Positions 24,205 to 41,665 of a stretch of 50,271 nucleotides of DNA are shown one piece after another. The DNA comes from Lachnospiraceae bacterium. Lineage in GTDB: Bacteria > Bacillota > Clostridia > Lachnospirales > Lachnospiraceae. Each line of letters opens with the position of its first letter. Within the stretch, counting starts at the first letter, position 1. The position numbers and the translations under genes are program-made. The DNA is taken from NCBI GenBank assembly GCA_024698145.1, contig JAILRO010000014.1:72356-122626 (forward strand), read 5' to 3'. The notes beneath the pieces were generated by a model. It saw nothing but the letters and a program-made list of their open reading frames with translations. It was not told the origin of the DNA and made no database searches.

Positions 24205-24510
24205 GAAAGCTTCCTCCTAATTAAACACGATTAAGAGATATTATACCTTATATAAGGGGAATGTACAAGGAGAAAATAATGGGTGGAGAAGATAGGTTAT
24301 CGAATTATAGGGATAAATAAAAGGCGGGGGATTCTTCACTTTTTATACATAATTTTGTACTTTTTTACATAATTAACCAGTAAATGTACAAACTCTCCGA
24401 AATTCTCCTAAATTTTTCGAATAAATTCCATTGATGTTCATAATTTCCTGCCATAGAATTACTGTATTGAACGTACGTTGAAAATATATTCTACTAAGGA
24501 AGGAACATTA
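24205..24510. other. Divergent intergenic region, nothing recognised
   Basis: About 306 bp between divergently transcribed iorA and the Rpn-like gene. It must hold both promoters, but I cannot pick convincing -35/-10 pairs. It contains A/T-rich repeats of TTTTACATAATT type near 24350-24375 and no open frame of interest. Confidence 0.5.
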
Positions 24511-25311
24511 ATGATACAAGAAAATACAATTGATTTGAAGAAAGAACTAGAGACTTTACCCAAAGGGGAGCTTCGTTATACAATGCGAAACGACTATATG
24601 TTTAAAGCAGTGTTACAGGATAATGAGTTTGCATTAAGAGGTTTGCTTGCCGCGCTTCTTGAAATGTCTGTGGACAGTATAATTGATGTCGAGACACTTA
24701 ATCCAATAGAACTAGGGCAGGCGGTCGACGATAAGACTTGCATACTTGATTTCTGGCTGCCCAATAAGGCTCATGATTTCTATTCGGAGTATGTGTTCAT
24801 GAATCGTAAAAATCATGAAATATATAGTGACAAGATGTCTATGCGTGTGTTAAACTTAAAAGCAATAGAAGATGATTCTATCGATAAGGAACCGAAGGAA
24901 TTGTATGAGTGGGCCAAGTTTTTCAAAGCCACAACGTGGGAGGAGATCAAGATGTTGGCACAGAATAATGAGTATATAGCAGGAACGGTGGTACGTCTTA
25001 AGAAGCTTTCAGATGATGAGAAGATACGCATGCAGTGTGAGGCAAGGCAGGACTATGAGCGTACTATTGCATCGTACAGAGCGGATGGAATACGTGTTGG
25101 AAGAGACGAAGGAATAAAGGAAGGAGATACATTACGTCTTCTCAGCCTGATTAGGAAAAAACTTGCCAAGGGCAAAGAACTTGAAGAGATTGCCGATGAC
25201 CTGGAAGAAGAGGTTAATACAATAAAACCGATGTATGATGTGGCGATAAAATTCTCGCCCGATTACGATGTTGAGAAAATATTTGAAGAATATAAGAAAG
25301 TGTTACAATAA
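24511..25311 (+). CDS. Rpn/PD-(D/E)XK transposase-like protein lacking the nuclease core
   Basis: A 266-residue member of the Rpn family (recombination-promoting nuclease/putative transposase). The start of the fold is present (YTMRNDYMFKAVLQDNEFAL, then the DDKTCILD strand), and so is the usual later block (FYSEYVFMNRKNHEIYSDKM) and a helical C-terminus with GIRVGRDEGIKEG. The roughly 80 residues that normally lie between DDKTCILD and the FYSEY block, containing the ExK half of the active site, are missing without a frameshift. It is probably catalytically dead, whether inactive relic or domesticated binder. ATG 24511 follows AAGGAAGG; a TTG at 24478 is possible but has no site. Confidence 0.8.
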   Translation: MIQENTIDLKKELETLPKGELRYTMRNDYMFKAVLQDNEFALRGLLAALLEMSVDSIIDVETLNPIELGQAVDDKTCILDFWLPNKAHDFYSEYVFMNRKNHEIYSDKMSMRVLNLKAIEDDSIDKEPKELYEWAKFFKATTWEEIKMLAQNNEYIAGTVVRLKKLSDDEKIRMQCEARQDYERTIASYRADGIRVGRDEGIKEGDTLRLLSLIRKKLAKGKELEEIADDLEEEVNTIKPMYDVAIKFSPDYDVEKIFEEYKKVLQ

Positions 25312-25366: not shown

Positions 25367-25572
25367 AATATTGATATGATTCTGCAATTCTCACACCCCC
25401 ATCACAGCACAATATGTAAATGAATGTAATTCCCCATGTGTATCTGTGAAGCCGACCGCGAGCACGGATGTGATGAAAGATGCTTGAAGAAACACTAGCA
25501 CCCGCGGCCTTGTTGGTTGAAAATTGCAAGGTTTATTATAGCAACTATGGCAAGGAATGCAAGAAAAAGCGT
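25367..25572. other. GC-richer gap upstream of loaP, nothing recognised
   Basis: About 200 bp with GC-rich patches (for example around 25450-25515) in an otherwise A/T-rich region. No gene, riboswitch or tRNA is recognised. A minus-strand open frame covers part of it but lacks a ribosome binding site and any family resemblance. Confidence 0.4.
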
Positions 25573-25620
25573 TCGACAAAAATCGACAAACTGTCCGACA
25601 CAAATCGCCGTTTGGTGTCG
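25573..25620. promoter_or_regulatory. Phased direct repeats and inverted repeat upstream of the loaP promoter
   Basis: TCGACAAA occurs at 25573-25580 and 25583-25590, and a variant CCGACACAAA at 25595-25604. Spacing is 10 and 12 bp, about one helical turn. The last copy also begins an inverted repeat CGACAC (25596-25601)/GTGTCG (25615-25620) ending 2 bp before the -35 box. This is the layout of an activator or repressor binding region. Confidence 0.5.
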
Positions 25621-25622
25621 TA

Positions 25623-25651
25623 TTGACTTTGCATGTGCATTGAAGTAGAAT
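25623..25651 (+). promoter_or_regulatory. Putative promoter of loaP
   Basis: TTGACT at 25623-25628, 17-bp spacer, TAGAAT at 25646-25651; the loaP ATG is about 60 bp downstream. Confidence 0.65.
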
Positions 25652-25712
25652 TCACATTGATTTCAACCAATGCAATTGGTATAGAAAATGAATCAATCGG
25701 ACGGTAGATGAT

Positions 25713-26222
25713 ATGAAATGGTATGTAATTCAGGTAATGAGCGGACAAGAGCATATAGTTGAAAATATGTGTAAATCATGCGTTATATCAGAGGACGAAG
25801 AAGTCTTCATCCCTATGTATGAACGACGCAAGAAGATAGGCGGGAACTGGAAAGATGAGATGTACATTCTCTTCCCCGGATACGTATTCCTATGCACAGA
25901 GAATGTCGAAGATTTGTACGAGAGACTCAAAGTAGTTCCCAAACTTACCAAGATTCTCAAAACCGGTGATGAATTCATACCGCTTCACGATACGGAAGTG
26001 GAGTTCATGATGCGTTTTGGCGGTAAGAATCATGTTGTTGAAATGTCTGTCGGCTACATCGAGGGAGACAAAGTTGTTGTAACGGAAGGCCCTATGACCG
26101 ATTGGCAGGGAAATGTCAAGAAGATAGACCGCCATAAGCGAATAGCCATCATCGAGGTGGAAATGTTTGGAAGAATGACGGATGTAACAGTCGGATTAGA
26201 GGTTGTTAATAAGGTGGAGTAA
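25713..26222 (+). CDS. loaP: LoaP-type NusG paralogue, processive antiterminator
   Basis: A 169-residue transcription elongation factor. Residues 1-100 form the NusG N-terminal (NGN) domain, beginning MKWYVIQVMSGQEH and including the hydrophobic ILFPGYVFLCTE strand that contacts RNA polymerase. Residues about 112-165 form a KOW domain (EGDKVVVTEGPMTDWQGNVK). Specialised NusG proteins of the LoaP group bind an RNA hairpin in the leader of long EPS or polyketide operons and let polymerase pass terminators. Here the gene is immediately followed by a structured leader that recurs before the EPS operon, which fits that role exactly. The ribosome binding site is weak (GGTAGATGAT), so expression may be low or controlled. 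Confidence 0.9.
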   Translation: MKWYVIQVMSGQEHIVENMCKSCVISEDEEVFIPMYERRKKIGGNWKDEMYILFPGYVFLCTENVEDLYERLKVVPKLTKILKTGDEFIPLHDTEVEFMMRFGGKNHVVEMSVGYIEGDKVVVTEGPMTDWQGNVKKIDRHKRIAIIEVEMFGRMTDVTVGLEVVNKVE

Positions 26223-26306
26223 AAGGATTCTTATTGCACATTGCATATACAATATAACAATTATTACGTTAGTTATAGGTAATATATTCAAAATAACCCT
26301 CAAACC

Positions 26307-26335
26307 TTGAAAATCATACGATTATATGGTATCAT
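26307..26335 (+). promoter_or_regulatory. Extended -10 promoter in leader copy 1
   Basis: TTGAAA at 26307-26312, 17-bp spacer, TATCAT at 26330-26335 preceded by TGG (extended -10). It would drive the DarT/DarG genes with about 180 nt of structured leader. Confidence 0.7.
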
Positions 26336-26451
26336 ACACACGTTTGCGAAAGCTATAATTCGCGACGCGTTGTACATGAAATTACAACATGAAATCGTCG
26401 CCTGGCGCGCGTTTGATGGGGTGGTGGATATCATTGAAAATGATTCAAGGC
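26336..26451 (+). ncRNA. Candidate LoaP-responsive leader RNA, copy 1
   Basis: The transcribed half of the repeat directly follows loaP and folds into several short hairpins (see the repeat entry). In known LoaP systems the protein acts through a small leader hairpin downstream of the promoter. The assignment here rests on position and on the perfect identity of the two copies, not on a match to a published motif. Confidence 0.5.
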
Positions 26452-26521
26452 ACAAGCTACGTTGGAGTGGCGAACTTGTGGAAAAACAGATATAAAAAAT
26501 TGGAATGCAAGTGGTAAAAAT

Positions 26522-27115
26522 ATGGGATTAGAAAATACAAGGGAAAAGAAATTGTTATATCATCTAACGCAACTGGATAATATGATATCTATCATAGAAA
26601 ATGGGTTGATGTCTAGAAAAGAAGTTGAATCTTTAGGGATTAGATATAGAGATGTGGCAGATAAGGAAATAATATCGAGAAGAGAAGTGCTTGGTTTAGA
26701 CAAGTATATTCCGTTTCACTTTCATCCATATTCGGCTTTTGATGTAGCGGTAAAGAAAAGTCATCCTGATGATAAATTTGTGTATATTACTATAAAGAGA
26801 GAATTTGCAAAATGGGCAGAGTTCAAGGTACTGATAAAACATCCATTATCGCTAGAAGAGTGTAATTTATATGAGTATTCAGAAGGAATCGCTCGTATGG
26901 ATTGGGATACACTTGAAAAAACTGGAGTGGATGATCAATACTCTAAAAATGTTAAAATGGCTGAAGTATTATGCGATAGAACAATACCAGCATCACTTAT
27001 TCAATGTGTATATGTAGCCGATGAGTGGACAAAAGAGTATGTTGAACAATTATTCTGGGACAAAGGGATAAAAGAGCAACCACCATATGTAAGCGTCATG
27101 GAGACGTTCTTTTGA
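26522..27115 (+). CDS. darT: DarT-type ADP-ribosyltransferase toxin (DUF4433)
   Basis: A 197-residue toxin of the DarT family, which uses NAD+ to ADP-ribosylate single-stranded DNA and blocks replication of phage or host. The family start LYHLTQLDNMISIIENGL carries the NAD-site H14. A Arg-rich segment follows (ISRREVLGLDKYIPFHFHPY), and KNVKMAEVLCD holds the likely catalytic E148, with RTIPASLIQCVYV after it. ATG 26522 gives the canonical N-terminus but has only a poor ribosome binding site, while a TTG at 26462 would add 20 non-conserved residues. Low translation suits a toxin. The antidote gene darG begins 34 bp downstream. Confidence 0.9.
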   Translation: MGLENTREKKLLYHLTQLDNMISIIENGLMSRKEVESLGIRYRDVADKEIISRREVLGLDKYIPFHFHPYSAFDVAVKKSHPDDKFVYITIKREFAKWAEFKVLIKHPLSLEECNLYEYSEGIARMDWDTLEKTGVDDQYSKNVKMAEVLCDRTIPASLIQCVYVADEWTKEYVEQLFWDKGIKEQPPYVSVMETFF

Positions 27116-27149
27116 TAATTGTTGAAATTAACGAAAGGAGGCGCATGTT

Positions 27150-28166
27150 ATGATAAAATATACTACCGGAAATATCTTTAACTCAGATGCTGATTGTATT
27201 TTCAACACGGTTAATTGCGAAGGATATATGGGAAAAGGCATCGCTTATCAGTTTAAGCAGCGCTTTCCTGAGAATAATAAAAATTATGAAAGAATCTGCA
27301 AGGAAGGTGAATTGAGACCGGGTGTTATTCTGCCTTTTGTAGAGAATGGAAAAATGATTATTAATTTTCCAACAAAGGATAAATGGCGGAATCCTTCACG
27401 AATACAATATGTTATTGATGGGCTGGATTCTTTTGTGAGCTTGCTTCCGGATTTAAATATCAAAAAGGTTGCAATTCCACCACTGGGGTGTGGAAATGGT
27501 GGTCTTAGGTGGAATGAAGTAAAGCCTATCATCGAACGCAAACTTATGGACTGTGATATTGAGATAGAAGTCTTTGAACCATATGCCATAAAGGTAAATA
27601 CGACTCTTGGCGAACAGATGACAGTGTATGATTTGCTCATATTGCATGTTAGAGGTAAGCTTAAAAAGGTTAATTCTCTGAGGTTTCAAAAAACATTATT
27701 TTTTACAAATTATTATGCAAACACTAAAATATATGGTTTTGCACGAGGAAGGTACGGACCTTATTCGAAAGACTTATATTGGGAATCAGAGAAAATAAGA
27801 AGATTTCAGAAACTCAATGCGCTGGCGAACACCGAAGATACGTATAAATCGATATATCAAATGATATGTTCAAAGAAGACTGATAATCAGTATAATAAGA
27901 TATCTGCATATATAGATAAGGCACTTGAACTCGTTAATTCAATTGAAGATGATCTGATTCTTGAGGGAATAGCAACAGCGTTGTATTTGATAAAAGATGA
28001 AAACATGACGAACAAAACATCAGTCGTACATGCGTTTAGAGAATGGTCTGATGATAAAGCTGCTAGGTTCAGTGAAAAGACCATTATGATTTGTTTGGAT
28101 AAGCTTGAATGCCTTGGAATTATTCGAAGAAATTTGTTTGAAGAGTATGAAGTGTTGAAAAGTTAG
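27150..28166 (+). CDS. darG: DarG-type macrodomain antitoxin
   Basis: A 338-residue antitoxin. Residues 1-150 are a macrodomain of the DNA-ADP-ribosyl glycohydrolase type: NTVNCEGYMGKGIAYQFKQ and PPLGCGNGGLRW are the ADP-ribose-binding loops. Residues about 155-338 match the DarG C-terminal helical domain (LLILHVRGKLKKVNSLRFQK, FARGRYGPYSKDL) that binds and inhibits DarT directly. It removes ADP-ribose from thymidine or guanosine in DNA. An ideal AAGGAGG site lies 8 nt before the ATG, much stronger than that of darT, as expected when antitoxin must exceed toxin. A terminator follows at 28192. Confidence 0.9.
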   Translation: MIKYTTGNIFNSDADCIFNTVNCEGYMGKGIAYQFKQRFPENNKNYERICKEGELRPGVILPFVENGKMIINFPTKDKWRNPSRIQYVIDGLDSFVSLLPDLNIKKVAIPPLGCGNGGLRWNEVKPIIERKLMDCDIEIEVFEPYAIKVNTTLGEQMTVYDLLILHVRGKLKKVNSLRFQKTLFFTNYYANTKIYGFARGRYGPYSKDLYWESEKIRRFQKLNALANTEDTYKSIYQMICSKKTDNQYNKISAYIDKALELVNSIEDDLILEGIATALYLIKDENMTNKTSVVHAFREWSDDKAARFSEKTIMICLDKLECLGIIRRNLFEEYEVLKS

Positions 28167-28191
28167 GTGGTTGCCTTTGGACTAAAACTGT

Positions 28192-28219
28192 AAGAACCTG
28201 ATGAGTCGGGTTCTTTTTT
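28192..28219 (+). terminator. Terminator of darTG
   Basis: Stem AAGAACC (28192-28198) with GGTTCTT (28209-28215) and a run of six T. About 170 bp of A/T-rich sequence without a gene follows before the SIR2 leader hairpin; the stretch includes an unusual C7-A8 run near 28260. Confidence 0.8.
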
Positions 28220-28394
28220 GGTGGTTGGAGAAGGGTCTTTTTGGTGTGGGTGATATTACCCCCCCAAAAAAAATCTAATTTGGTTTTGTGTATTTACGTA
28301 TATTGTTAGATGTGGTAAAGTATAACAGTTAACTATAAATTTAGTACATTTTTTATTTATGGAAAGAAAAACAAAATATTAAAAAGATTGGATG

Positions 28395-28419
28395 ACACTG
28401 ACAAATGTGTCAGTGTTTT
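28395..28419 (+). terminator. Terminator-like hairpin abutting the SIR2 gene's ribosome binding site
   Basis: Perfect 9-bp stem (28395-28403 with 28408-28416), 4-nt loop and four T, ending one base before the GGGGAGG site at 28420-28426. It resembles an attenuator; the short T run makes full termination uncertain. Confidence 0.6.
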
Positions 28420-28435
28420 GGGGAGGTATTATTAA

Positions 28436-29359
28436 TTGAATTACAAAGATGAATCCAAGCTAAATAAAAACGTTTTAAAAAAAAATATAATTGCATCGGC
28501 TCATATTAGTTTTCTGTTTGGGGCAGGTGTTAATGGGACGGCTCTTCCTCAATTAAGAGATTTTGAACAGACAAAAAATAAACTTGCAGAATGGGAGGTG
28601 GATACATCTAAAGGTATTGAGGAAGGGATAGATAATATTGAAGATGATATAAAAAGAGAATGTATAAAAAATATTTTTATTGATGAGTTTAAAAGTTATC
28701 ATGAAAATGCAGTGAAGAAAATATGTTCAGGAAAGGACAAATCAATAAAGAATTTAGAAGCATTATTAAGAAAAACATATCTAATCGTACAAGAGACTCA
28801 AAATAGAAATCCAAGCATGAAACAGATTAATATATATACATTGAACTATGATAATATTGTAGAAAAAGTATTGTTGAATAGAGGGTATTTGTATAATTCT
28901 ATATCCGCTAGCAATACTTCGAATAAATCAAGTTTGATGGATGTTATTGGATACAATTACAACGTAAAAAAATATATTCCTACATTTATGGTAAGCAAGT
29001 TGCATGGGGATATTGATAAGCCAATAATACCGGGAAAATCAAAATATAAAGATATGCTTAATGAAGATTATTTTGAAGTTGCATTTAATATGAAAGAGCA
29101 ATTGTGTAGGCCTAATTCTATTTTAATAGTGATTGGTTATTCCGGAAAAGATAATCATATAAACAAGATGTTGGAAGACTGTTTGAATACTGGACTTACT
29201 ATATATTGGTATAAATATTTAGCGACGGATATTGTGCCATTTGAAAATCGGGTTAATGTATTTGTGAGAGAACAAGATGATTATACTAGTATAAAAGATA
29301 CAACATTAGTATGTTATAATGATATGGAGAATGTATGGGCAGAGAAATTGGAAAAGTAG
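28436..29359 (+). CDS. SIR2-family NADase of a SIR2-HerA defence pair
   Basis: A 307-residue SIR2-like protein. NAD-site elements are FLFGAGVNGTALPQL (residues 27-40), the NIYTLNYDNI block (132-141), the catalytic H190 in SKLHGDID and IVIGYSGKDNHI (231-242). No zinc-binding Cys pair is present, as in bacterial defence SIR2 proteins that deplete NAD+ rather than deacetylate proteins. Translation starts at TTG 28436, nine bases after GGGGAGG. The HerA gene overlaps its 3' end by 25 bp, implying translational coupling and a stable complex. SIR2-HerA (also called Nezha) assemblies degrade NAD+ or DNA on phage infection; that activity is inferred here. Confidence 0.87.
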   Translation: MNYKDESKLNKNVLKKNIIASAHISFLFGAGVNGTALPQLRDFEQTKNKLAEWEVDTSKGIEEGIDNIEDDIKRECIKNIFIDEFKSYHENAVKKICSGKDKSIKNLEALLRKTYLIVQETQNRNPSMKQINIYTLNYDNIVEKVLLNRGYLYNSISASNTSNKSSLMDVIGYNYNVKKYIPTFMVSKLHGDIDKPIIPGKSKYKDMLNEDYFEVAFNMKEQLCRPNSILIVIGYSGKDNHINKMLEDCLNTGLTIYWYKYLATDIVPFENRVNVFVREQDDYTSIKDTTLVCYNDMENVWAEKLEK

Positions 29360-31044
29360 TTGAAGCAAAAGGAGTTTATGTTAGGGCAGAACTTTATGAA
29401 CTGTTTCCACCGTATATTGTTGAATATGGAAAAACTATTATTTCACCACGGATTAATTCATATGTGAAAACTAGGGTCGGCTTGGATATAATTATTTGTC
29501 AGATTACTGGTGAATATTATGAGGAGCAGAGAAAAGGAACGTTTACAGGATATTTTTTTGATTTGGTAGTGAAAGGATATATAGAAAACAATCATTTTAT
29601 ACAAGGAGTTAGAATGCTTCCTATGGTATCCGCGGGTATTGAAATGTTGGATTCTGATGATTTTAAGATGATAAATGATTGCGATAGTGTTAATTGTTTT
29701 TCTTTAGGAACAAATCTTTTTGACAATACTCAAAGTTATTATTTTGATTATAATACAATTATACCATCTCATATTGGTATTTTTGGAAATACAGGTAGCG
29801 GAAAAAGTAACACCTTAGCCAAGTTGTTAAGTATATATTCGGAAATTCTGAAAAACACAGATAAAGGAAAAGTTCTTGTTTTTGATATAAATAATGAATA
29901 TGGAAACAATGCTATTTGTGAATTAGATATGAAAAATATTTATAATTTAACCACACGAAGTCGATCAGAGAAAAGAATACCGTTGAACTATGGTAATTTA
30001 GAAGAAGATGACTGGTGCGTATTGTTAAATGCAACTGAGGCAACTCAACGTCCTGTTATAAAAACAGCATATAATGATAATAAATCAAAAGAAGAGTATG
30101 AAGCCTTAATTAAGGATATGATAAGAACGGGACGTCACCAGTTGCTTAAATCAATGCAGTATAATATGAGAGATTATATTTCCGGCATACAAAATCTATA
30201 TTGGCATACAACTTGTGAAGTATTTTACTTTTTTGATGGAGAAAAAAATGTATTTTTTAATAATGAATCCCATGAAGCTGAAGAGTATTTGAGTAATATA
30301 AGTGTTAATGTTCCGGAAGCTCTACTGTCAAATTTCTTGTTTAAATTGTATTTTGCGGTTGCCACGCATATAGGGTATGGCACTCAATATGAGTTTATTT
30401 CTCCTTTGTTAAGAAGGGCAGAGAAGTTGTTCGCAGACTTTGAAAAAGTTTTTTCTTCGAGCAATGAAGACTTGTTTGGTGGTAAAAATATTGCGGTTAT
30501 TCAATTAGCTAATGTTAATAAGGATATGCTGGAATTGATACCATCTATAATTGTTAATCATTTATTTCATAAACAAATAGAAAAAAAAGAAAATAACAGA
30601 ATAAAAGATATTATTAATGTGGTTGTGGATGAAGCACACAATTTGCTTTATGAAAATGATCTTGATCGTAAACATACAACCATTACGGTAGAAACATTTG
30701 AGAGAGCAATAAAAGAAGGAAGAAAATTTGGGATGTTTTTATGGATATCCAGTCAAAGACCTTCAGATATATCATCTACAATAATATCTCAAATGCATAA
30801 TTATTTTATTCACAAATTGGTGAATCCTAACGATTTGAGCAGAATAAGAAAGGCTGTTGCGTTCTTGGATCAAAATGCAATGGATTCATTGACGGTTTTG
30901 GGGTCGGGAGAATGTATTGTTTCAGGTACGGGAGTTAAAATGCCATGCTTTATAAAAATTAATCAGTTGAGTAAAGAACAAAGACCTAACAGTGAAAATG
31001 TTTCTTTGTTTGGGTGCGATGGTATATTTGAAAAAGATGATTAG
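29335..31044 (+). CDS. herA: HerA-like FtsK-family ATPase, SIR2 partner
   Basis: A 569-residue ATPase. The N-terminal ~100 residues form a HerA-ATS/HAS-barrel-like beta domain. Walker A is GNTGSGKSN (151-159); Walker B is INVVVDEAHNLL with D432-E433; SSQRPSDISSTIISQMHN matches the sensor/Arg region of HerA-FtsK proteins. Such ATPases form hexamers that scaffold and activate SIR2 in defence complexes. The start ATG lies inside the end of the SIR2 gene, preceded by GGAG. It is followed by 47 bp and then leader copy 2. No NurA nuclease gene is adjacent, so this is the SIR2-HerA type and not the archaeal repair type. Confidence 0.9.
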   Translation: MGREIGKVVEAKGVYVRAELYELFPPYIVEYGKTIISPRINSYVKTRVGLDIIICQITGEYYEEQRKGTFTGYFFDLVVKGYIENNHFIQGVRMLPMVSAGIEMLDSDDFKMINDCDSVNCFSLGTNLFDNTQSYYFDYNTIIPSHIGIFGNTGSGKSNTLAKLLSIYSEILKNTDKGKVLVFDINNEYGNNAICELDMKNIYNLTTRSRSEKRIPLNYGNLEEDDWCVLLNATEATQRPVIKTAYNDNKSKEEYEALIKDMIRTGRHQLLKSMQYNMRDYISGIQNLYWHTTCEVFYFFDGEKNVFFNNESHEAEEYLSNISVNVPEALLSNFLFKLYFAVATHIGYGTQYEFISPLLRRAEKLFADFEKVFSSSNEDLFGGKNIAVIQLANVNKDMLELIPSIIVNHLFHKQIEKKENNRIKDIINVVVDEAHNLLYENDLDRKHTTITVETFERAIKEGRKFGMFLWISSQRPSDISSTIISQMHNYFIHKLVNPNDLSRIRKAVAFLDQNAMDSLTVLGSGECIVSGTGVKMPCFIKINQLSKEQRPNSENVSLFGCDGIFEKDD

Positions 31045-31167
31045 AAGATATAAAAGACATTTTTTTTAAGGAAACCATTCCTGTCATCTTTTTATTGCAC
31101 ATTGCATATACAACATAACAATTATTACATTAGCTATAGGTAATATATTCAAAATAACCCTCAAACC

Positions 31168-31196
31168 TTGAAAATTATACGATTATATGGTATCAT
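31168..31196 (+). promoter_or_regulatory. EPS operon promoter in leader copy 2
   Basis: TTGAAA (31168-31173), 17-bp spacer, TGG-TATCAT (-10 at 31191-31196), the same as in copy 1 apart from one spacer transition. Confidence 0.7.
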
Positions 31197-31312
31197 ACAC
31201 ACGTTTGCGAAAGCTATAATTCGCGACGCGTTGTACATGAAATTACAACATGAAATCGTCGCCTGGCGCGCGTTTGATGGGGTGGTGGATATCATTGAAA
31301 ATGATTCAAGGC
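31197..31312 (+). ncRNA. Candidate LoaP-responsive leader RNA, copy 2
   Basis: Same folded segments as copy 1 with no base change. It is followed by a terminator at 31377-31403. The combination of promoter, structured RNA and terminator upstream of a 12-kb EPS operon is the usual substrate for processive antitermination. Not matched to a published motif by me. Confidence 0.55.
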
Positions 31313-31376
31313 GTTATTGCGTTGATATGGCGAAGCTGTGTCTTTTTGCAAGCAAATAAATGATGAGATTAATTTG

Positions 31377-31403
31377 TAAGAGCTGGGAACGGCTCTTATT
31401 TTT
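31377..31403 (+). terminator. Leader terminator of the EPS operon
   Basis: Perfect 7-bp stem TAAGAGC/GCTCTTA (31377-31383 with 31392-31398), 8-nt loop, T5 at 31399-31403. It lies about 50 bp before the first EPS gene, so transcription must pass it to express the cluster. Confidence 0.75.
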
Positions 31404-31454
31404 ATGATTGAAAGAATAAAAAGTAAAAATAAATGTTACGGGGATGACAAATTG

Positions 31455-32282
31455 ATGAAGGTGCTGGTTACAGGTGCAAATGGATATTTGGGTTGTGGAA
31501 TAATAGAGCAACTTATTAAAAAAACTGAGGTTGATGTTGTTGCATGTGATATTTCAACACAAAACTTAAATGGAAAACTTAAAACGATACAATGTGATCT
31601 TTTTTCATTAGAAGATCCGTATACGTATTTTGGAAAGCCTGATGTGGTTTTACATCTTGCGTGGCGTGATGGGTTTGTACATTATTCGGATTCTCATGTT
31701 GAGGATTTATATAAGCATTATTTATTTCTTGGAAAAATGGCCAAAAGTGGAGTGAGGAAAATAGCTGTGCTAGGGTCAATGCATGAAGTGGGATTTTACG
31801 AGGGATGTATTAATGAAGATACGTCATGTAATCCGATAACACAATATGGTATAAGCAAAAATGCATTGCGTCAATTGACGGAAATTATATGCAAACAGAA
31901 TGGTGTTTTGTTTCAGTGGTTAAGAGGATATTATATTGTTGGAAGCTGCAAGAATGGGCGTTCTATATTTAGTAAGATAGCCTTGGCTGCATCTGAAGGG
32001 GAAAGGTGTTTTCCGTTCACAATGGGACAGAATCAGTATGATTTTATCGATTACGATGAATTTACAATGGATGTTGTAAAAGCGATAATGCAAGATGAGG
32101 TATTGGGTGTTATAGAAATATGTTCGGGACAACCTGAAAAATTATCAACGCGTGTTGAAAAATTTATTAAGGAAAATGGATATGATATAGAATTGAAATA
32201 TGGAGCTTTCCCGGATCGTCCTTATGATTCTAAGGCGGTATGGGGAAGTAACGATAAAATTAAAAAAATTGTAGAGGGCTAA
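31455..32282 (+). CDS. NAD-dependent epimerase/dehydratase family protein
   Basis: A 275-residue extended SDR enzyme acting on a nucleotide sugar, first gene of the EPS operon. The dinucleotide motif GANGYLG lies at residues 7-13 and the catalytic Tyr-Lys pair in YGISK. ATG 31455 gives the canonical MKVLVTGANG start; an upstream ATG at 31404 abuts the leader terminator and adds non-conserved residues. The exact sugar cannot be told. Its stop codon immediately precedes the ATG of the PssD-like gene, so the two are tightly coupled. Confidence 0.85.
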   Translation: MKVLVTGANGYLGCGIIEQLIKKTEVDVVACDISTQNLNGKLKTIQCDLFSLEDPYTYFGKPDVVLHLAWRDGFVHYSDSHVEDLYKHYLFLGKMAKSGVRKIAVLGSMHEVGFYEGCINEDTSCNPITQYGISKNALRQLTEIICKQNGVLFQWLRGYYIVGSCKNGRSIFSKIALAASEGERCFPFTMGQNQYDFIDYDEFTMDVVKAIMQDEVLGVIEICSGQPEKLSTRVEKFIKENGYDIELKYGAFPDRPYDSKAVWGSNDKIKKIVEG

Positions 32283-32738
32283 ATGAATATGAAGATATGC
32301 ATGGTGGGGTCATCGGGCGGACATCTGACCCATTTATATATGTTGAAAAATTTTTGGTGTAAACACGAGAGATTATGGGTTACATTTGATAAAGAAGATG
32401 CAAATAGTATACTAAAGGATGAAAAAAAATATTATTGCTATTATCCTACAAATAGAAGTTTGAAGGCGTTGATAATAAATACAACCATTGCGTGGCGAGT
32501 TTTAAAAAAAGAAAAGCCGGATGTTATCATTTCCTCTGGAGCCGCTGTTGCGGTTCCTTTTTTTTATTTGGCCAAAATATTTAGGGTGAAAACAATTTAT
32601 GTTGAGATTATTGATAGAATTGACAAGCCAACGTTGACTGGCAAGATAGTTTACCCTGTTACAGATGTGTTTATTGTTCAATGGGAGGAAATGAAAAAAA
32701 TATATAAAAAAGCAATTAATCTTGGAAGTGTTTTCTAA
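32283..32738 (+). CDS. PssD/Alg14-like glycosyltransferase membrane subunit
   Basis: A 151-residue protein of the Alg14/PssD/Cps14F group. It starts with the glycine-rich ICMVGSSGGHLTHLY, includes PDVIISSGAAVAVPFFYLAK and ends TDVFIVQWEEMKKIYKKA. Alg14-type proteins recruit the Alg13-type catalytic half to the inner membrane face to add the second sugar onto undecaprenyl-PP-sugar. The partner gene follows 39 bp downstream. It begins directly after the stop codon of the epimerase gene. Confidence 0.9.
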   Translation: MNMKICMVGSSGGHLTHLYMLKNFWCKHERLWVTFDKEDANSILKDEKKYYCYYPTNRSLKALIINTTIAWRVLKKEKPDVIISSGAAVAVPFFYLAKIFRVKTIYVEIIDRIDKPTLTGKIVYPVTDVFIVQWEEMKKIYKKAINLGSVF

Positions 32739-32777
32739 AATAATAAAGATAGAGAAATTGCGGAAGGAGAGTACACA

Positions 32778-33287
32778 ATGATTTTTGTAACGGTAGGGAC
32801 ACATGAACAGCCTTTTGACCGACTCGTTCAGTGTGTTGATAATATAAAAGGTTCTGGCCTAATCTTCGACGATGTTTTTATTCAAAGTGGATTTTCTACA
32901 TATTTACCACAGTTTTGCGACAAATCAAAGATGATTACATATGCAGAAATGAAAGAAAAAGTTGAGAAAGCGAGAATTGTGATTACGCATGGTGGCCCTT
33001 CGAGTTATTTTATGCCGTTGCAAATTGGGAAAATCCCTGTTGTTGTGCCAAGGCAATATAAATATGGTGAACACGTTAATAATCATCAATTAGATTTTGC
33101 CAGAAAAATAAGTGAAAGATATCATAATATAATTGTTGTTGAAGAAATAGAAAATTTGAAAGATATTCTGATTAATTATGACTCTATTATTAAAAATATG
33201 AATGGCAATATTGAAAGTAACAATGCATATTTTTGCAGGGAGTTTGAAAATATCGTTGATAAACTTGTGTTAGGAAGTGTTAAATGA
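32778..33287 (+). CDS. PssE/Alg13-like glycosyltransferase catalytic subunit
   Basis: A 169-residue GT28 C-terminal-domain protein. It opens with MIFVTVGTHEQPFDRLV and has the nucleotide-sugar site VITHGGPSSYFMPLQIGKIP and VVVPRQYKYGEHVNNHQ. With the PssD-like protein it forms one glycosyltransferase, as in Cps14F/Cps14G. AAGGAGAG precedes the ATG. The next gene overlaps it by 4 bp (ATGA). Confidence 0.9.
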   Translation: MIFVTVGTHEQPFDRLVQCVDNIKGSGLIFDDVFIQSGFSTYLPQFCDKSKMITYAEMKEKVEKARIVITHGGPSSYFMPLQIGKIPVVVPRQYKYGEHVNNHQLDFARKISERYHNIIVVEEIENLKDILINYDSIIKNMNGNIESNNAYFCREFENIVDKLVLGSVK

Positions 33288-34357
33288 GAATATTGATGGT
33301 TTGTACGGTTCCATTTACGATTACGGGAATACCAGTACATATTAGAAATTACTATAATGAATTAATAAAAAAAGAAAATGTGTCGATAGATATAGTTTCA
33401 GAATTGTATGATGAAAAAATTGTTAAAACATTGAATCTTGACAATACTAATTTGTATGAATTACCACGAAAAAAAAATCCAATTAAGTACGTTGTAGTTT
33501 TGAGAGAAATACTCAAAAGAGAGAGATATGACATTATTCATATACATGGGAATAGTTCAACGATGGCATTAGAGTTGTTTGCAACATTTGGTATGAGGAT
33601 TGTCAAGGTTATTCATGCACATAACACCAAATGTTCACATGTTTTTTTAAATTTTTTATTAAAACCGGTAATAAATAAGATCTCGAATTTGAAGTTTGCC
33701 TGCAGTACAGAAGCGGGAGATTGGCTATATGGTAAACATAAAGATTATTTTGTTATAGGAAATGGTGTGGACATAAAAAGATTTGCTTTTTCAAAAAGAA
33801 ATCGAATTAGTTTAAGAAAAGAATACGGTATACCGGACAAAAAAATAGTTATCGGTCACATAGGAACGTTTAATGAACAGAAAAATCAAAAATTCTTAAT
33901 AGGTGTGGCTGAAGGATTAAAAAAGCGGGAACTAGATTTTCTGTTTTTTATGATTGGAGAGGGTAATAATACCGCTTTTATGGAATCTATAACAGAAAAA
34001 AAATTGGAAGATTATTTTTTCGTTAAAACCGCTGTTACTGAGATATACAAGTATTATTCGATTTTTGACATATTTGTGTTGCCGTCAAAATGGGAAGGGT
34101 TAGGCATGGTAGCAATAGAAGCGCAATTGTCAGGCCTAACTACAATTGTATCTGATTTTGTTCCAAGAGAAATTGAGATAAGCAACAATGTATTTTTTAT
34201 TTCTTTAGAACAGGATGAATGGATTGAAGAAATAGAGCGAGCAACAAAGGATATTAATCGGAGAAGTGTAACAAATTATAACAAATATGATATTGTTGAA
34301 TGCGCAAACTACTTAACAAAATGTTACGAAAAAGGACTATTAAATTATGAAAATTAG
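33284..34357 (+). CDS. GT4-family glycosyltransferase
   Basis: A 357-residue GT-B enzyme. The N-terminal half has MRILMVCTVPFTITGIPVHI and IIHIHGNSSTMALELFA; the C-terminal donor domain has IGHIGTFNEQKNQKFLI and the retaining ExxxxxE-like motif KWEGLGMVAIEAQLSG. It resembles EpsF/Cap-type transferases that extend the lipid-linked EPS repeat unit at the cytoplasmic face. It overlaps pssE by 4 bp and the polymerase gene by 11 bp. Confidence 0.9.
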   Translation: MRILMVCTVPFTITGIPVHIRNYYNELIKKENVSIDIVSELYDEKIVKTLNLDNTNLYELPRKKNPIKYVVVLREILKRERYDIIHIHGNSSTMALELFATFGMRIVKVIHAHNTKCSHVFLNFLLKPVINKISNLKFACSTEAGDWLYGKHKDYFVIGNGVDIKRFAFSKRNRISLRKEYGIPDKKIVIGHIGTFNEQKNQKFLIGVAEGLKKRELDFLFFMIGEGNNTAFMESITEKKLEDYFFVKTAVTEIYKYYSIFDIFVLPSKWEGLGMVAIEAQLSGLTTIVSDFVPREIEISNNVFFISLEQDEWIEEIERATKDINRRSVTNYNKYDIVECANYLTKCYEKGLLNYEN

Positions 34358-35615
34358 AATAACTGATTCACAATTGGTCTTCGCTTTGGGAACAGTTGCC
34401 AATATATCTGTATTAAATATTTTTGGGAATACTTTGTATATTTATTTATCATATGGTATTTTGCTATTTTTACTATTGCGGAGAAAACAAATATCGTTTT
34501 CTAAAAACTTTTATAGTCTGTATTTAGCATCGATAATTATAGGTTGTGTGTTATGTCAGGTAAATTCAAACTTTGAAAATGGGTGGAAAACAAGATCTGT
34601 TATAGTAAGTATTAATATGATTGTGACATATTTATTATTTGGATTTATTTTTAAGTCAGATGAATTAAAAGAGAAGCTTTTTCAAGGAGTATATCTTGGA
34701 TGTTTAATAAACTTGGGCTGGTGTTATTTACAAATTGTTTTGTATAATTTGATGGGAACTGACATAAATCTGATAGTGTTCAATTTTCCTTCACAAATTA
34801 AGAATGGCAAATTGGTTTACTCTGCTTTAGTTACCCATGCTGGAATATTGGTTCCGGTTTTAGTTATCGGTTTTTTGGTTTCAGACTTGAATATACTTAA
34901 AGTTTTGTTCTGTATTGCAGCAGTTATGACCAGAAATGCGACCTGTATGATAGCAATGGCAGTTTGTGTCTTTTTTTATGTCGTAATAGTTTCAAAAAAT
35001 GGTATAAGAGGAATTGGTAAAAAGAAAGTGGTATACATTTGTTTGACACTTATCGTAGCTATTGCTTTTGTGCTTATTTTATGGGATAAATTTAATTTGG
35101 CATGGTCTTTTCGGAATGTCACTGAACGCATATATAGTTTGACGGTTCTTAGAAAAGTGACGAGTGGAAGCGATGCGACGCATCTTAGATATTTGACAAG
35201 TTTCCCGATGATAGCAAGTCGTCTAGCTCCGATTAATTTTATGTTTGGGTCTGGCATGGGGACATCTGGTTATTATATGTCGCATTATTTTGGACAATAT
35301 ATTGATAAAATATGGGTTGTTGAATGCGATGTTATAGACATCTTTTATTCTGTCGGTCTGATTGGCGCCTTTATTTTTTATGCCAGTATGGCATATATAT
35401 TTTTCAAGGGATACAAAATTAATAAAAGATATTCTGTTTTTTCATTGACTATAACAATAGCTGGTTTCTTTTATAATTTTCAGATGCCTTGGCTGTATTT
35501 AATTGAATTTATTATGCTTTGGTCGGTAAAAAATAATGTGGATTGCTGGGGGTTCTTTAAATTATACAGTGAGGGAAAAAATGACTACAAAAAGAGTACT
35601 TGTGATTCTTATTAA
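34347..35615 (+). CDS. wzy: Wzy-type EPS polymerase
   Basis: A 422-residue protein made almost entirely of hydrophobic segments (about 10-12) with a large loop around residues 250-315 (TERIYSLTVLRKVTSGSDAT, then a GSGMGTSGYYMSHYFG segment). This is the shape of O-antigen/EPS polymerases, which join repeat units on the outer membrane face of the plasma membrane. Sequence conservation in this family is too low to name the linkage. It overlaps both neighbours in the operon. Confidence 0.8.
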   Translation: MKIRITDSQLVFALGTVANISVLNIFGNTLYIYLSYGILLFLLLRRKQISFSKNFYSLYLASIIIGCVLCQVNSNFENGWKTRSVIVSINMIVTYLLFGFIFKSDELKEKLFQGVYLGCLINLGWCYLQIVLYNLMGTDINLIVFNFPSQIKNGKLVYSALVTHAGILVPVLVIGFLVSDLNILKVLFCIAAVMTRNATCMIAMAVCVFFYVVIVSKNGIRGIGKKKVVYICLTLIVAIAFVLILWDKFNLAWSFRNVTERIYSLTVLRKVTSGSDATHLRYLTSFPMIASRLAPINFMFGSGMGTSGYYMSHYFGQYIDKIWVVECDVIDIFYSVGLIGAFIFYASMAYIFFKGYKINKRYSVFSLTITIAGFFYNFQMPWLYLIEFIMLWSVKNNVDCWGFFKLYSEGKNDYKKSTCDSY

Positions 35616-36459
35616 TTATAATTCGACAGATCATACAGTTGAGTGTTTGGGTTCTATATTTAAGAATAAAACAAGAGATGTCGATGTCATTATCATAGAT
35701 AATGCGTCCATTTTGACTGAACGTGAAAAATTAAGAAAAATAGATACTGGAGAGTGTAAAATTGTTTATTTAGATGACAATTTGGGTTTTTCGGGTGGCA
35801 ACAACGTTGGGATAAAATATGCATTGGATAACAACTATGATGGGGTGTTGCTATTAAATAATGATACAATTGTTGCTGGAAATTTTTTCTGGGAATTAAA
35901 TAAGTCTATAAATGAGCATAAGGAGTCTATACTAACGTTTCAAATTCGAAATTATTATAAATCGAATGAAATATTATATGATGGCGGTAAGGTTGTTTTT
36001 TGGAAAGGTGCAGTTAAGATTTTAGGTGTTGGGAAAACTGCCACAAATGAAAAAAAAGATAAAAAAATCACGTTTGCACATGGCTGTTGCATGTATATTC
36101 CGAGAGAAATAATTATAAATGTTGGATTTATGCCAGAAGACTATTTTCTATATTTTGAAGATACGGCATATTCTGTCGAGGCTATAAAAAAAGGATATAA
36201 TATTTGGTATTCTAATAAAACAAATATTTGGCACAAGGAATGTGTTTCTACTGGACTTTTTTCGAATAATTATCAATATTATTTCTGCAGAAATAGGTTA
36301 CTATTCACGAAAAAATATGTACCTTGGTACTTAAAGCCGATAGCGTACACATATACATTTGCATTCGCAATGCGAAAAATCATAGAAAGGAAATTTATAG
36401 TTGCTAATTGTCATGAGGCATTGAGAGATTTTGTCAAGGGCAAGGTAGGGAAAAAATAA
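35581..36459 (+). CDS. GT2-family glycosyltransferase
   Basis: A 292-residue GT-A enzyme. Motifs are VILINYNSTDHTVECLGSI, VIIIDNAS, the block NLGFSGGNNVGIKYAL and the DxD-like LLLNNDT, then PEDYFLYFEDTAYSVEA as acceptor motif. This is the rhamnosyltransferase-like (WcaE/RfbF) subgroup. Start ATG 35581 fits an AGGGA site and overlaps the wzy 3' end by 35 bp; the frame back to 35536 adds non-conserved residues. Confidence 0.9.
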   Translation: MTTKRVLVILINYNSTDHTVECLGSIFKNKTRDVDVIIIDNASILTEREKLRKIDTGECKIVYLDDNLGFSGGNNVGIKYALDNNYDGVLLLNNDTIVAGNFFWELNKSINEHKESILTFQIRNYYKSNEILYDGGKVVFWKGAVKILGVGKTATNEKKDKKITFAHGCCMYIPREIIINVGFMPEDYFLYFEDTAYSVEAIKKGYNIWYSNKTNIWHKECVSTGLFSNNYQYYFCRNRLLFTKKYVPWYLKPIAYTYTFAFAMRKIIERKFIVANCHEALRDFVKGKVGKK

Positions 36460-36470
36460 AAAGAAAGGGA

Positions 36471-36509
36471 ATGTGGTATGGTTTACCCAATCACTTTTGG
36501 GGAAGATGA
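36471..36509 (+). CDS. Possible 12-residue leader peptide
   Basis: A tiny open frame MWYGLPNHFWGR lies after a good AAGAAAGGGA site and its TGA stop overlaps the ATG of the pyruvyltransferase gene (ATGA). It may only couple translation to that gene, whose own GGGGAAG site is too close to its start. Whether the peptide itself matters is unknown. Confidence 0.35.
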   Translation: MWYGLPNHFWGR

Positions 36510-37663
36510 GAATATTAATACTAGGAATAGAAATAAGTTCACCTAATAAAGGATGCTCTGCGTTAGGATATTCATTAATTACTGTTTTAAGTAGGTTGGT
36601 AAGGAATCAGCAAGACTGTAAGATTTGTATTGCTGCTAGAAATAGCAATATCCCGTATGATTTTGATGGAAGAGGTTTTGAAATTTCAACAATTGAAATA
36701 CGTAATAAAGACCCGAGATTTTATTTTAGATTAGGAAAATTAATTAATAAAGCAGATGTTGTTTTTGATTTCACTGAAGGGGATAGTTTTACTGAACTGT
36801 ATGGTATTAAGAGATTTGTACAAACTAGCATGATGAAGCAAATGGTTTTGAATCGGCACAAGCCATTGGTGCTTGGACCACAGACATATGGACCGGTTTA
36901 TCATAAATATGCAAAAATATGGATGAAAAGCATAATAAAAAACGCAGAAGCTGTTTTTTCTAGAGACAAGATGTCAATAGACTTTTTGAAAGGGGTGTTG
37001 ACAAGAGATTATGTGTTGACTAATGATATTGCATTCGAATTGCCGTATCGTGTACGAAATGAACGAAAAAATGATAAAAAGATTATTGGGATAAATCCTT
37101 CAGGGCTACTGTGGAGTGGAGGTTACTTTGGTGGAAACCAGTTTGGGTTGACTATGGATTATAAGAAATATATTTGTGAAGTTATAGAATTCTTATTAAG
37201 AAAAAAAGATATTGAAATACACCTGATTTCACATGTCATTCTTGACGATATGGAAAATCCCGAATCCGATAATAAGGTATGTGATTTTTTGAAAACGAAA
37301 TATCCTAACACAATTATTGCTCCGTTATTTGATTCACCTGTTCAGGCCAAGAATTATATATCCGAGATGGATGTTTTTATAGGTTCGAGAATGCATGCAA
37401 CAATAGCGAGTTTTTCGACAGGTGTTCCGACAATTCCTGTATCATATAGTAGGAAGTTTGAAGGTTTGTATGATAGTCTGAATTATCCATATGTTATTTC
37501 TGCCACAACATTGGACACGAATGAGGCAATAAAACTGACAAAAAAATATCTTTCCTGCACAGAAGAACTCGAAGAAGCAATTTGTAAAAGCAGGATAGTT
37601 GTAGATGAAAAAAGGAAAATATTGTACGAATCGCTAGAAACTATAATAAGAAGATATGAATGA
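36506..37663 (+). CDS. Polysaccharide pyruvyltransferase family protein
   Basis: A 385-residue GT-B-like enzyme (PS_pyruv_trans). The N-terminus MRILILGIEISSPNKGCSAL, the middle PLVLGPQTYGPVYHKYAK and the C-terminal VFIGSRMHATIASFSTGVP are typical. It transfers pyruvate from PEP to form a ketal on a sugar, adding charge to the polymer. ATG 36506 gives the canonical start; a GTG at 36473 would be 11 residues longer. It lies in the middle of the EPS operon. Confidence 0.87.
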   Translation: MRILILGIEISSPNKGCSALGYSLITVLSRLVRNQQDCKICIAARNSNIPYDFDGRGFEISTIEIRNKDPRFYFRLGKLINKADVVFDFTEGDSFTELYGIKRFVQTSMMKQMVLNRHKPLVLGPQTYGPVYHKYAKIWMKSIIKNAEAVFSRDKMSIDFLKGVLTRDYVLTNDIAFELPYRVRNERKNDKKIIGINPSGLLWSGGYFGGNQFGLTMDYKKYICEVIEFLLRKKDIEIHLISHVILDDMENPESDNKVCDFLKTKYPNTIIAPLFDSPVQAKNYISEMDVFIGSRMHATIASFSTGVPTIPVSYSRKFEGLYDSLNYPYVISATTLDTNEAIKLTKKYLSCTEELEEAICKSRIVVDEKRKILYESLETIIRRYE

Positions 37664-37678
37664 AAAGAGTGTGATGGT

Positions 37679-38320
37679 GTGATTTCAAGTTTATATAAAA
37701 TTTTGCCATACGGTTTTAAAAAGTACCTTTTGAAATTAATAATAAAATTCGAAAAAGGTGAATGCTTTTCAGTGACAATTCGAAAAATCTTCAAAGAGCA
37801 GTATGGTATAGAAATAGGTATAGCTACATATGGTTGTTTTGATGTAGATAGGGTTGCAAGAAATATAAAAATAGGTAATTATTGTTCGTTTGCACAGGGG
37901 GCTGTAATTGTGCCAAGAAGAGAACATCCTTTGCATTATTGTTCTACGCATCCATTTTTTTTTAATTCTGTATATGGTTGGGTAAAAAAATCTCCGATTC
38001 CTAATGAAGAATTGGTAATAGGAAATGATGTATGGATTGGGCAGAATGCAGTGATAAGTAGTAAGTGCGGTTCAGTAGGAAATGGCGCAATAATTGGTGC
38101 ATGTAGTTTTGTTAACAAGGATGTACCACCGTATGCGGTTGTTGCCGGTGTTCCTGCGCGTGTTATTGGTTATCGTTTTGATTCAGAAACAATAAAACTG
38201 TTAGAAAGTTCAAAATGGTTTGAATTGTCGCCTAACAAACTCAAGAAATATGTTCATTTGGCTGATAATCCAAAGGAGTTTGCTCTAGCGATAAAAGAGA
38301 GTGAGAATACGGATGAGTAA
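37679..38320 (+). CDS. CatB-like acyltransferase (left-handed beta-helix)
   Basis: A 213-residue hexapeptide-repeat protein of the xenobiotic/CatB-related O-acetyltransferase group. Repeats appear as NIKIGNYCSFAQGAVIV, LVIGNDVWIGQNAVI and GNGAIIGACSFVNKDV, with the C-terminal signature VVAGVPARVIG. The active-site His lies in REHPLHY. It starts at GTG 37679 with a weak ribosome site and overlaps the next gene by 8 bp. It probably acetylates an EPS sugar. Confidence 0.87.
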   Translation: MISSLYKILPYGFKKYLLKLIIKFEKGECFSVTIRKIFKEQYGIEIGIATYGCFDVDRVARNIKIGNYCSFAQGAVIVPRREHPLHYCSTHPFFFNSVYGWVKKSPIPNEELVIGNDVWIGQNAVISSKCGSVGNGAIIGACSFVNKDVPPYAVVAGVPARVIGYRFDSETIKLLESSKWFELSPNKLKKYVHLADNPKEFALAIKESENTDE

Positions 38321-39329
38321 TAATATAATTGATTCTGCACAAATCGTAAAGAATATTGAGGATATGAGGTGTTATGGGGCATATTCGCTTGACGACGAAA
38401 TTAGAAATGCCAGTACGTCGGGTGGGATTTTTTCGTGTTTGGCACAAGCGGTGTTGCTGCAAAATGGATATGTTTGTGGCGCTGCTTATAATGCGAAAAA
38501 TGAAGTTGAACATATTATCATTTCTAATATTAATGATTTAGAGTTGTTGAGACGTTCCAAATATGTACAAAGTAGAATTGGCAATTGCTACATAGATATA
38601 AAAAGAATTTTGGATAATGGAGATTTGCTACTTTTTTCTGGCGCACCGTGTCAGGTGAGTGGGCTAAATTTGTTTCTTGGAAAAAACTATGAGAATTTGC
38701 TTACAGTTGATTTTATTTGTTGCGGAATGCCATCACCAAAGGCTTTTCGAAAGTACATTGACTATTTGGCTGATAAATATAAATCAGCAGTTGAGTCTGT
38801 GTGGTTCAAAAATAAAACGAACGGCTGGCATAACTTGGGAACAAAAGTTGAGTTTGAAAATGGTAGTACGTATTTTAGACAAGGTAACAGAGACTATTTT
38901 ATGTCTGATTACATTTTTGATAGTTTGACAGTGCGTGAAAGTTGTACGGTATGTCAATTTAAACATATTCCGCACGATAGTGATATTACAATGGGTGATT
39001 TTTGGGGAATAGAAGATATACATTCAGAATTTGATGATGATAAAGGCATATCAGCGGTAATAATTAATTCTAAAAAAGGACGAGATGCGTTTGAAGCAAT
39101 TAGGGATGGTATCTTTTGTTTTGAAACAAATATAAATGATATAGCAAAAAAAAATTTTACACTCTATCAATCCATACCATATAATTATAAACAAAAGAGT
39201 TTTTTTGAAGAGTTAGAGATTAAGCGATTTGATAAGGTGTCACGAAAATATGGGTCGTATAGAGGAATAAGAAAAACAATAATAGATATGAAACACTATA
39301 TGAGGATTATTATTAGGAGGTTAATTTAG
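38313..39329 (+). CDS. FrhB-like (coenzyme F420 hydrogenase beta C-terminal) protein without ferredoxin part
   Basis: A 338-residue EPS-locus FrhB/FdhB_C family protein. Blocks are YSLDDEIRNASTSGGIFSCL, SGAPCQVSGLNLFLG, DFICCGMPSPKAFRKYI and SCTVCQFKHIPHDSDITMGDFWGI, the last carrying Cys and Asp positions of the family. Members often begin with a two-cluster ferredoxin segment; here the protein starts directly at the catalytic-type region. Its redox substrate in EPS synthesis is unknown. ATG 38313 overlaps the preceding stop. An orphan ferredoxin module with the missing architecture lies at 43239-43448. Confidence 0.82.
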   Translation: MSNNIIDSAQIVKNIEDMRCYGAYSLDDEIRNASTSGGIFSCLAQAVLLQNGYVCGAAYNAKNEVEHIIISNINDLELLRRSKYVQSRIGNCYIDIKRILDNGDLLLFSGAPCQVSGLNLFLGKNYENLLTVDFICCGMPSPKAFRKYIDYLADKYKSAVESVWFKNKTNGWHNLGTKVEFENGSTYFRQGNRDYFMSDYIFDSLTVRESCTVCQFKHIPHDSDITMGDFWGIEDIHSEFDDDKGISAVIINSKKGRDAFEAIRDGIFCFETNINDIAKKNFTLYQSIPYNYKQKSFFEELEIKRFDKVSRKYGSYRGIRKTIIDMKHYMRIIIRRLI

Positions 39330-39330
39330 A

Positions 39331-40194: not shown

Positions 40195-40211
40195 AAAAGA
40201 GAACTTTAAGA

Positions 40212-41663: not shown

Positions 41664-41665
41664 TT

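Follow-up and report, generated by a model that had tools for sequence, protein, structure and literature searches.

The stretch of DNA described here (the window, 50,271 bp on the forward strand of contig JAILRO010000014.1, positions 72,356 to 122,626, in assembly GCA_024698145.1 of a Lachnospiraceae bacterium) carries a gene for the antiterminator LoaP, two anti-phage defence modules and an exopolysaccharide (EPS) gene cluster, all on the forward strand, and the defence modules are bracketed by two near-identical copies of a leader associated with loaP. The gene ahead of the first copy, which was overlooked in the initial annotation, is loaP itself (25713-26222); its product, of the NusG family, scores 180.1 bits against the NCBIfam model NF033641 (3.6e-53), vs. 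a curated cut-off of 125, and matches Pfam NusG at 3.9e-14. It ends 5 bp ahead of copy 1. The copies, 26228-26451 and 31089-31312, form a direct repeat with 98% identity at a spacing of 4,861 bp, as first annotated, but measure 224 nt and not the 221 bp given then. Copy 2 stands at the head of the EPS genes, in agreement with the initial annotation, and the cluster behind it (31404-43261) encodes an epimerase, an Alg14-like protein, glycosyltransferases, a flippase and acetyltransferases, delimited as open reading frames (ORFs) and assigned by Pfam for two genes and from their translations for the rest.

Between the copies lie four genes, in which the two modules proposed at the outset, DarTG and SIR2-HerA, were both identified by PADLOC, Pfam and NCBIfam searches. 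The first, darT (26522-27115; the frame is open from a TTG at 26462, the ATG at 26522 being the chosen start), encodes a DNA ADP-ribosyltransferase toxin recognised by PADLOC (2.1e-38) and Pfam (PF14487, 5.7e-27), with an NCBIfam DarT score of 63.4 bits that is under the cut-off of 150. It is followed by darG (27150-28166), encoding a macro-domain antitoxin (NCBIfam NF048014, 265.3 bits, cut-off 250; PADLOC 1e-89). We assigned the pair to DarTG on the basis of a DarG above its curated cut-off, a DarT domain found by both Pfam and PADLOC, and the adjacency of the genes. The next two, sir2 (28436-29359; Pfam SIR2_2 4.4e-12, PADLOC SIR2 2.7e-14) and the gene of its helicase-like partner, herA (29335-31044; PADLOC HerA 4.6e-106), overlap by 25 nt and form a SIR2-HerA gene pair, of which neither member reaches the cut-off of the corresponding NCBIfam anti-phage equivalog (SIR2, 35 of 500 bits; HerA, 135.4 of 800 bits). 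An intrinsic terminator is predicted between darG and sir2 (28192-28215, -13.1 kcal/mol, z -3.37), and the terminator scan placed a second terminator-like hairpin before sir2 (28393-28412). In the same gap a crude consensus scan found no promoter-like site on the forward strand.

Both the cassette genes (G+C 0.29-0.35) and the EPS genes (0.32) are AT-rich vs. the first 24 kb of the window (0.41), as acquired DNA would be expected to look. No close relative of HerA (E ≤ 1e-60) was found in 298 other genomes of the family, and darG was present in 3/26 genomes of the genus including that of the window, the other two proteins matching at 42-46% over part of their length. Viral contigs yielded neither the leader nor a HerA relative, and contained nine DarG relatives at 38-45%; on plasmids, HerA matched at most at 31% and DarG at most at 43% among the best 20 matches of each. 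Pfam recognised no recombinase among the four genes, no inverted repeats of at least 20 nt were found in 25500-32500, and on these grounds the cassette is not classed as an integrase- or transposase-mobilised element.

All five mismatches among the 224 positions of the repeat (26230, 26253, 26268, 26273 and 26315 in copy 1) lie upstream of the -10 hexamer, and from 26316 to 26451 the copies are identical at 136/136 nt. On both sides of the repeat the flanks show an ungapped identity of only 2-10/20 per 20-nt bin, and a match of such length is far beyond chance. A search of the whole genome (2,886,337 bases, 71 contigs) returned just the two copies in the window, and the reading as a dispersed element, which the initial annotation had named as counting against its proposal, was dropped for this 2.89-Mb genome.

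Each copy holds a promoter region and the 5' part of a leader element, which continues past the end of the copy to a conserved 3' box, a feature likewise overlooked earlier. The promoter-like site (TTGAAA-17-TATCAT) lies at 26307-26335 in leader 1 and, in the same form, at 31168-31196 in leader 2; the consensus scan was crude and gave 33 sites in the region vs. 36.3 in shuffles, i.e. no excess, and the site rests on its position. From an alignment of 25 leaders, and for leader 1 also from congeners, 5' boxes were delimited at 26394-26419 and 31255-31280, both inside the repeat. The 3' boxes, placed by the same alignment at 26467-26475 in leader 1 (GTGGCGAAC, degenerate at its end) and at 31327-31336 in leader 2 (ATGGCGAAGC), are both outside it, so that the 3' end of identity falls between the boxes and a 3' box is kept beyond each copy. 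Stem scoring over the 25 leaders gave a possible hairpin before the 3' box of leader 1 (26444-26466, arms 26444-26448 and 26462-26466), which differs from the minimum-energy fold of this leader, and the repeat ends in the loop of this best-scoring stem. In leader 2 a predicted intrinsic terminator (31376-31399; terminator scan and fold) comes after the boxes and the EPS genes come next, as at a LoaP target; in leader 1 the boxes are present, but no strong terminator occurs before 28192. The initial annotation had allowed for a scar of insertion, which we would refine to a shared regulatory element, as the repeat is a LoaP-associated leader. Rfam offered no name for it: in the window a tRNA was the only match at the gathering threshold, with nothing in leader 1 at E ≤ 5, one congeneric leader (L018) had matches below gathering only (best E 0.12) and 11 other leader loci had nothing at E ≤ 0.05. 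A known Rfam RNA family (EAR and others) was accordingly rejected as the identity of the leader.

Beyond the repeat, the next 40 nt of the two copies are not significantly alike, their alignment score being reached by 456/5000 shuffles, and only the 3' box is common to both. This is hard to reconcile with a recent copying of the leader in its entirety, which was rejected as the sole explanation; recombination or gene conversion within the leader would account for it better.

The initial annotation had suggested a comparison with related genomes, and in three congeners (G019, G020 and G022) there is indeed just one leader behind loaP, at a distance of up to about 210 nt, and no defence cassette; the genomes compared were congeners, and no other strain of the same species was among them. 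All three leaders contain the repeat core as well as another conserved segment, TGGCGAAGC, and downstream of this come a T-tract and then other genes. A leader was matched in 6/25 congeners and none had two leaders on one contig, so that the converse arrangement, both copies without the cassette, which the initial annotation had regarded as adverse to it, was not encountered among the 25; two of the contigs are short on the downstream side of the leader, with about 0.14 kb left in G022:C276 and about 1.7 kb in G015:C55, and a second copy further on is possible there. In five congeneric loci (L018, L017, L020, L021 and L016) the 3' box lies within the stem of a leader terminator (e.g. L020:1705-1800, z -5.91), and the window copies are without such an outer stem.

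Eleven sites were read individually, namely the two window copies, G014:C19, G015:C55, G016:C365, G019:C23, G019:C14, G020, G022, L030 and L061. A loaP-type gene is immediately upstream in eight of them, found by search at window copy 1, G019:C23, G020 and G022 and by reading of translations only at G019:C14, G016:C365, L030 and L061; the exceptions are G014:C19, G015:C55 and window copy 2. L061 belongs to another genus and is preceded by two loaP-type genes (by reading). It is also the second of two matches to the pattern GGAATGGCGAAGCTAT in 397 family genomes, the first (L060) having been dropped as part of a coding frame with no relation to LoaP; from a pattern search of genome contigs, one of seven loci (L033, Natronohydrobacter) was dropped as unrelated. 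Past eight leaders (G014, G015, G016, two in G019, G020, G022 and L030), the first gene is of sugar, polysaccharide or acyl-transfer type in seven according to Pfam (O-acyltransferase, UDP-GlcNAc 2-epimerase, sugar epimerase, polysaccharide biosynthesis, nucleotidyltransferase, WecG and EpsG), and in the eighth a 38-residue fragment at a contig end with no Pfam match. A defence gene directly behind the leader was seen in 0/8, which makes leader 1 of the window an exception among them.

The boxes accompany loaP across the family. Among 299 family genomes, LoaP exceeded the curated cut-off in 31, of which 30 contributed one locus each. The core 9-mer of the 3' box, TGGCGAAGC, is present at 18/30 of these loci, in every case (18 vs. 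0) in the same orientation as loaP, against an expectation of 0.5 from first-order shuffles and a maximum of 3 over 50 shuffles; eight of the 30 loci gave no ORF by signature in one ORF-based analysis and were omitted there, and the 9-mer count used all 30. When the 5' box was sought with up to two mismatches in 30 other LoaP-bearing genomes, 20 sites were found in 16 genomes, vs. none for the reversed pattern, and a comparison of coordinates placed 16 of these sites no more than 400 bp from a LoaP match. The four remaining sites include two with a 3' box (L096 and L102), one with a degenerate 3' box (L111) and one with none seen (L109); the genes behind L102 and L111 were read as aminotransferases such as occur in polysaccharide loci. 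At one locus (L110, G344:C1:509351 and 510268) a 5' box stands on either side of a single loaP, the downstream one with two mismatches and without an exact 3'-box 9-mer near it in L063.

The alignment of 25 elements (A4) comprises 16 of the 18 loci with the 9-mer, seven leaders from the genus and L030, and the two window copies. Left out were L063 and L072, in which the boxes are further apart, G016:C365, which has no 5' box, and L061; six rows (L074, L078, L081, L088, L089 and L091) have poor 5' boxes. The 3' box hardly varies from row to row, and immediately ahead of it 25/25 leaders allow a stem of four pairs or more, with a mean score of 5.92 vs. 3.52 in shuffles (0/300 shuffles reach 5.92). 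We take the two-box element to be a LoaP leader element, to which LoaP would bind.

This element invites comparison with the LoaP operons for difficidin and macrolactin in Bacillus velezensis, where LoaP allows transcription to continue through intrinsic terminators, provided that a leader hairpin is present, antagonises NusA at such terminators and acts also at terminators further downstream (PMC12691694). The loaP family is the same and, in both cases, a leader RNA element is followed by an intrinsic terminator. We propose, with a probability of roughly 60%, that the repeat is a LoaP-dependent antitermination leader and that the cassette has joined the LoaP regulon, with LoaP carrying the polymerase into sir2-herA and into the EPS genes. 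Leader 1, at the place usual for the genus behind loaP, would drive darT-darG from its promoter; with LoaP recruited by this leader, the polymerase would then overrun the terminators at 28192 and 28393 and reach sir2-herA, and leader 2 would reload LoaP for the terminator at 31376 and the EPS operon. Insertion of the cassette at the leader, with the leader duplicated, would have put two internal defence modules under a regulator of surface polysaccharide, and surface and internal defence would be coordinated as a result. Each step, from LoaP binding and read-through to co-regulation and insertion by recombination, is deduced from the anatomy of the window. The proposal is favoured by the family assignment of LoaP, the leaders behind loaP in congeners, the tie of the boxes to loaP genes across the family, the stem ahead of the 3' box and the sugar-related genes behind other leaders, as well as by terminators lying where it needs them and by the lack of a promoter-like forward-strand site between darG and sir2 in the scan. 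The read-through of further operon terminators, predicted for the window, has its counterpart in B. velezensis (PMC12691694).

A number of observations weigh against the proposal. Those in the window concern leader 1 above all. Of the 25 aligned 3' boxes, that of leader 1 has degenerated furthest and alone lacks the box-terminal GC, which speaks against a fully functional element, and the scan gave no terminator-like site between the leader and darT. LoaP may therefore not be needed for darTG itself. In minimum-energy folding the window leaders do not outdo their shuffles (z -0.94; -0.55 and +0.91), and the leader of L018 does not either (z -0.61); that of L020 does (z -5.91), through its terminator. 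The published B. velezensis hairpin is of the UNCG type (PMC12691694), and no UNCG loop was read in the window boxes, the letters UUCG being contained in the 5' boxes of L065 and L075. Further afield, 19/25 congeners are without a leader match, 12/30 LoaP loci, that of the window among them, lack the exact 9-mer, and no 5' box was found in 14/30 LoaP genomes. Of the 18 loci with the 9-mer, only 11 have a 5' box resembling ATCGTCGC-N-TTGCCGCGTTT (up to two mismatches) ahead of the 3' box, with a twelfth (L063) having it about 150 nt ahead and the rest poor or not found. The 3' box is upstream of loaP in 14/18 loci and downstream in 4/18, so the order seen in the window is that of the genus and not of the family. 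Since the 3' box is nearly invariant, covariation cannot support pairing between the boxes. A covariance model (R1), searched against 397 family genomes, recovered the window copies only; with nine candidates scored per genome it passed over G061 and G062, both of which have the boxes, and thus neither supports nor excludes a family-wide element.

Another possible explanation, compatible with the LoaP-regulon proposal and somewhat less probable than even, is that the cassette is mobile. It would have entered by a crossover at the leader, for instance from a circular molecule carrying a leader and the defence genes, and RecA-type recombination between the copies would excise it and restore the order loaP-leader-EPS. 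Leader 1 keeps the loaP-side position and leader 2 the EPS-side position, which is what a crossover with such a leader-plus-cassette molecule would leave and a later crossover undo; a possible origin by recombination and a possible later excision would both fit this anatomy. The single-leader layout of G019, G020 and G022 points the same way, as do the sharp ends of identity, with the 3' end between the boxes and a 3' box retained beyond each copy, and a HerA without close relatives in the family. Neither an integrase nor a transposase is present among the four genes, however, and the absence of long inverted repeats from the surrounding 7 kb also speaks against mobility.

Defence genes tend to gather in variable loci in general, and it is conceivable, if rather unlikely, that the leader is a promoter duplicated by chance, with sir2-herA having a promoter of its own, darTG autoregulated and LoaP playing no part in defence. 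The degenerate 3' box of copy 1, the lack of a leader terminator ahead of darT and the unremarkable folds of the window leaders would all be accommodated in this way. Against it stand the tie between the boxes and loaP genes across the family, the confinement of all five differences to the part upstream of the fully identical 136 nt, and a darG-sir2 gap in which the scan saw no promoter. We consider it slightly less probable again that the two leaders are ancient and have been held identical by repeated gene conversion across the core, which would explain a near-identical core beside sequence sharing the 3' box alone; five differences in 224 positions could equally be recent, however, and two leaders on one contig were seen in no congener. 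Repeats can mislead assembly, and this genome is in 71 contigs, but an artefact is highly improbable given copies that differ at five sites, flanks that differ on both sides and a locus interior to a 122.6-kb contig.

DarTG, SIR2-HerA and LoaP are known systems, and what is new is their arrangement, on a type of LoaP leader for which we found no description; the literature search found neither the arrangement nor the two-box leader described among the papers listed, which did not extend to the LoaP papers of 2017, 2021 and 2024, so that an earlier description is possible. As in DarTG elsewhere, darT is followed by a darG with a macro domain, but here the pair sits behind a LoaP-associated leader and the scan detected no promoter-like site between this leader and the ATG of darT. 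Likewise, sir2 and herA are adjacent and overlapping as in known SIR2-HerA pairs, whereas their sequences are divergent and far under the equivalog cut-offs. In comparison with B. velezensis LoaP (PMC12691694), the targets in the window would be EPS genes and, by position, anti-phage genes, and the leader has two conserved boxes, in which no UNCG tetraloop was read, with near-identical leaders bracketing a cassette. AlpA of Pseudomonas aeruginosa is also an antiterminator governing a self-harming programme (PMC7969949), although the opening of the abstract mentions neither loaP nor a duplicated leader nor a polysaccharide operon. If the LoaP-regulon proposal is true, internal phage defence (DarTG and SIR2-HerA) is wired to the antiterminator that governs the surface coat, and this wiring could be gained or lost through one recombination event. 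There would also be a concrete leader element for LoaP in Lachnospiraceae, a gut family, from which LoaP targets could be listed by sequence.

A 2026 preprint on Eggerthella lenta connects loaP and capsule clusters with inverted repeats and with resistance to phage (PMC13174815). In both cases loaP and a polysaccharide cluster are associated with defence against phage and with recombination between repeats, which for the window is a proposal; in E. lenta, however, megabase inversions occur between copies of a 16-bp inverted repeat, whereas the window has direct repeats with a defence cassette between them. A much more speculative idea, to which we give little credence, is that LoaP leaders are sockets, their boxes serving both as the LoaP loading site and as homology for plugging in, swapping or inverting polysaccharide and defence cassettes, so that one antiterminator would command whichever module sits behind the leader. 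The E. lenta capsule inversions beside loaP may make use of the same 5' box (PMC13174815, in part). The 16-bp repeat given there aligns as TAAGCGCG-GTTATG to TAAGCGCGTTTTATG in the leader of G019:C14, and its mean score over the 25 leaders is reached by 2/2000 shuffled repeats and its maximum by 52/2000. Several points speak against the socket idea: in L080 an equally high score arises at a position outside the box, the two window copies reach only 14 of 32, and the leaders compared are related to one another. The same variant of the 5' box, TAAGCGCGTTTTATG, was noticed at L057 (9275-9400, minus strand), where it resembles the 16-bp inverted repeat of the E. lenta capsule inversions (PMC13174815, from the available portion).

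Several other features of the window deserve mention. Directly ahead of loaP is a gene of the PD-(D/E)XK transposase family (24478-25311), and a protein similar to its product precedes the LoaP leader at L070 (by reading). A strong terminator-like hairpin lies within an EPS gene (32538-32557), as expected for an operon with internal terminators. Further downstream, a large surface protein, read from its translation as CotH-like with repeat domains, is encoded at 44113-47991, and PADLOC gave no match to it. It is followed by genes for a TIR-like ThsB and an overlapping macro-domain ThsA (48136-49858; PADLOC 8.4e-72 and 6.2e-47), a Thoeris-type defence pair on the far side of the EPS cluster, so that families of NAD-linked defence flank the cluster on both sides.

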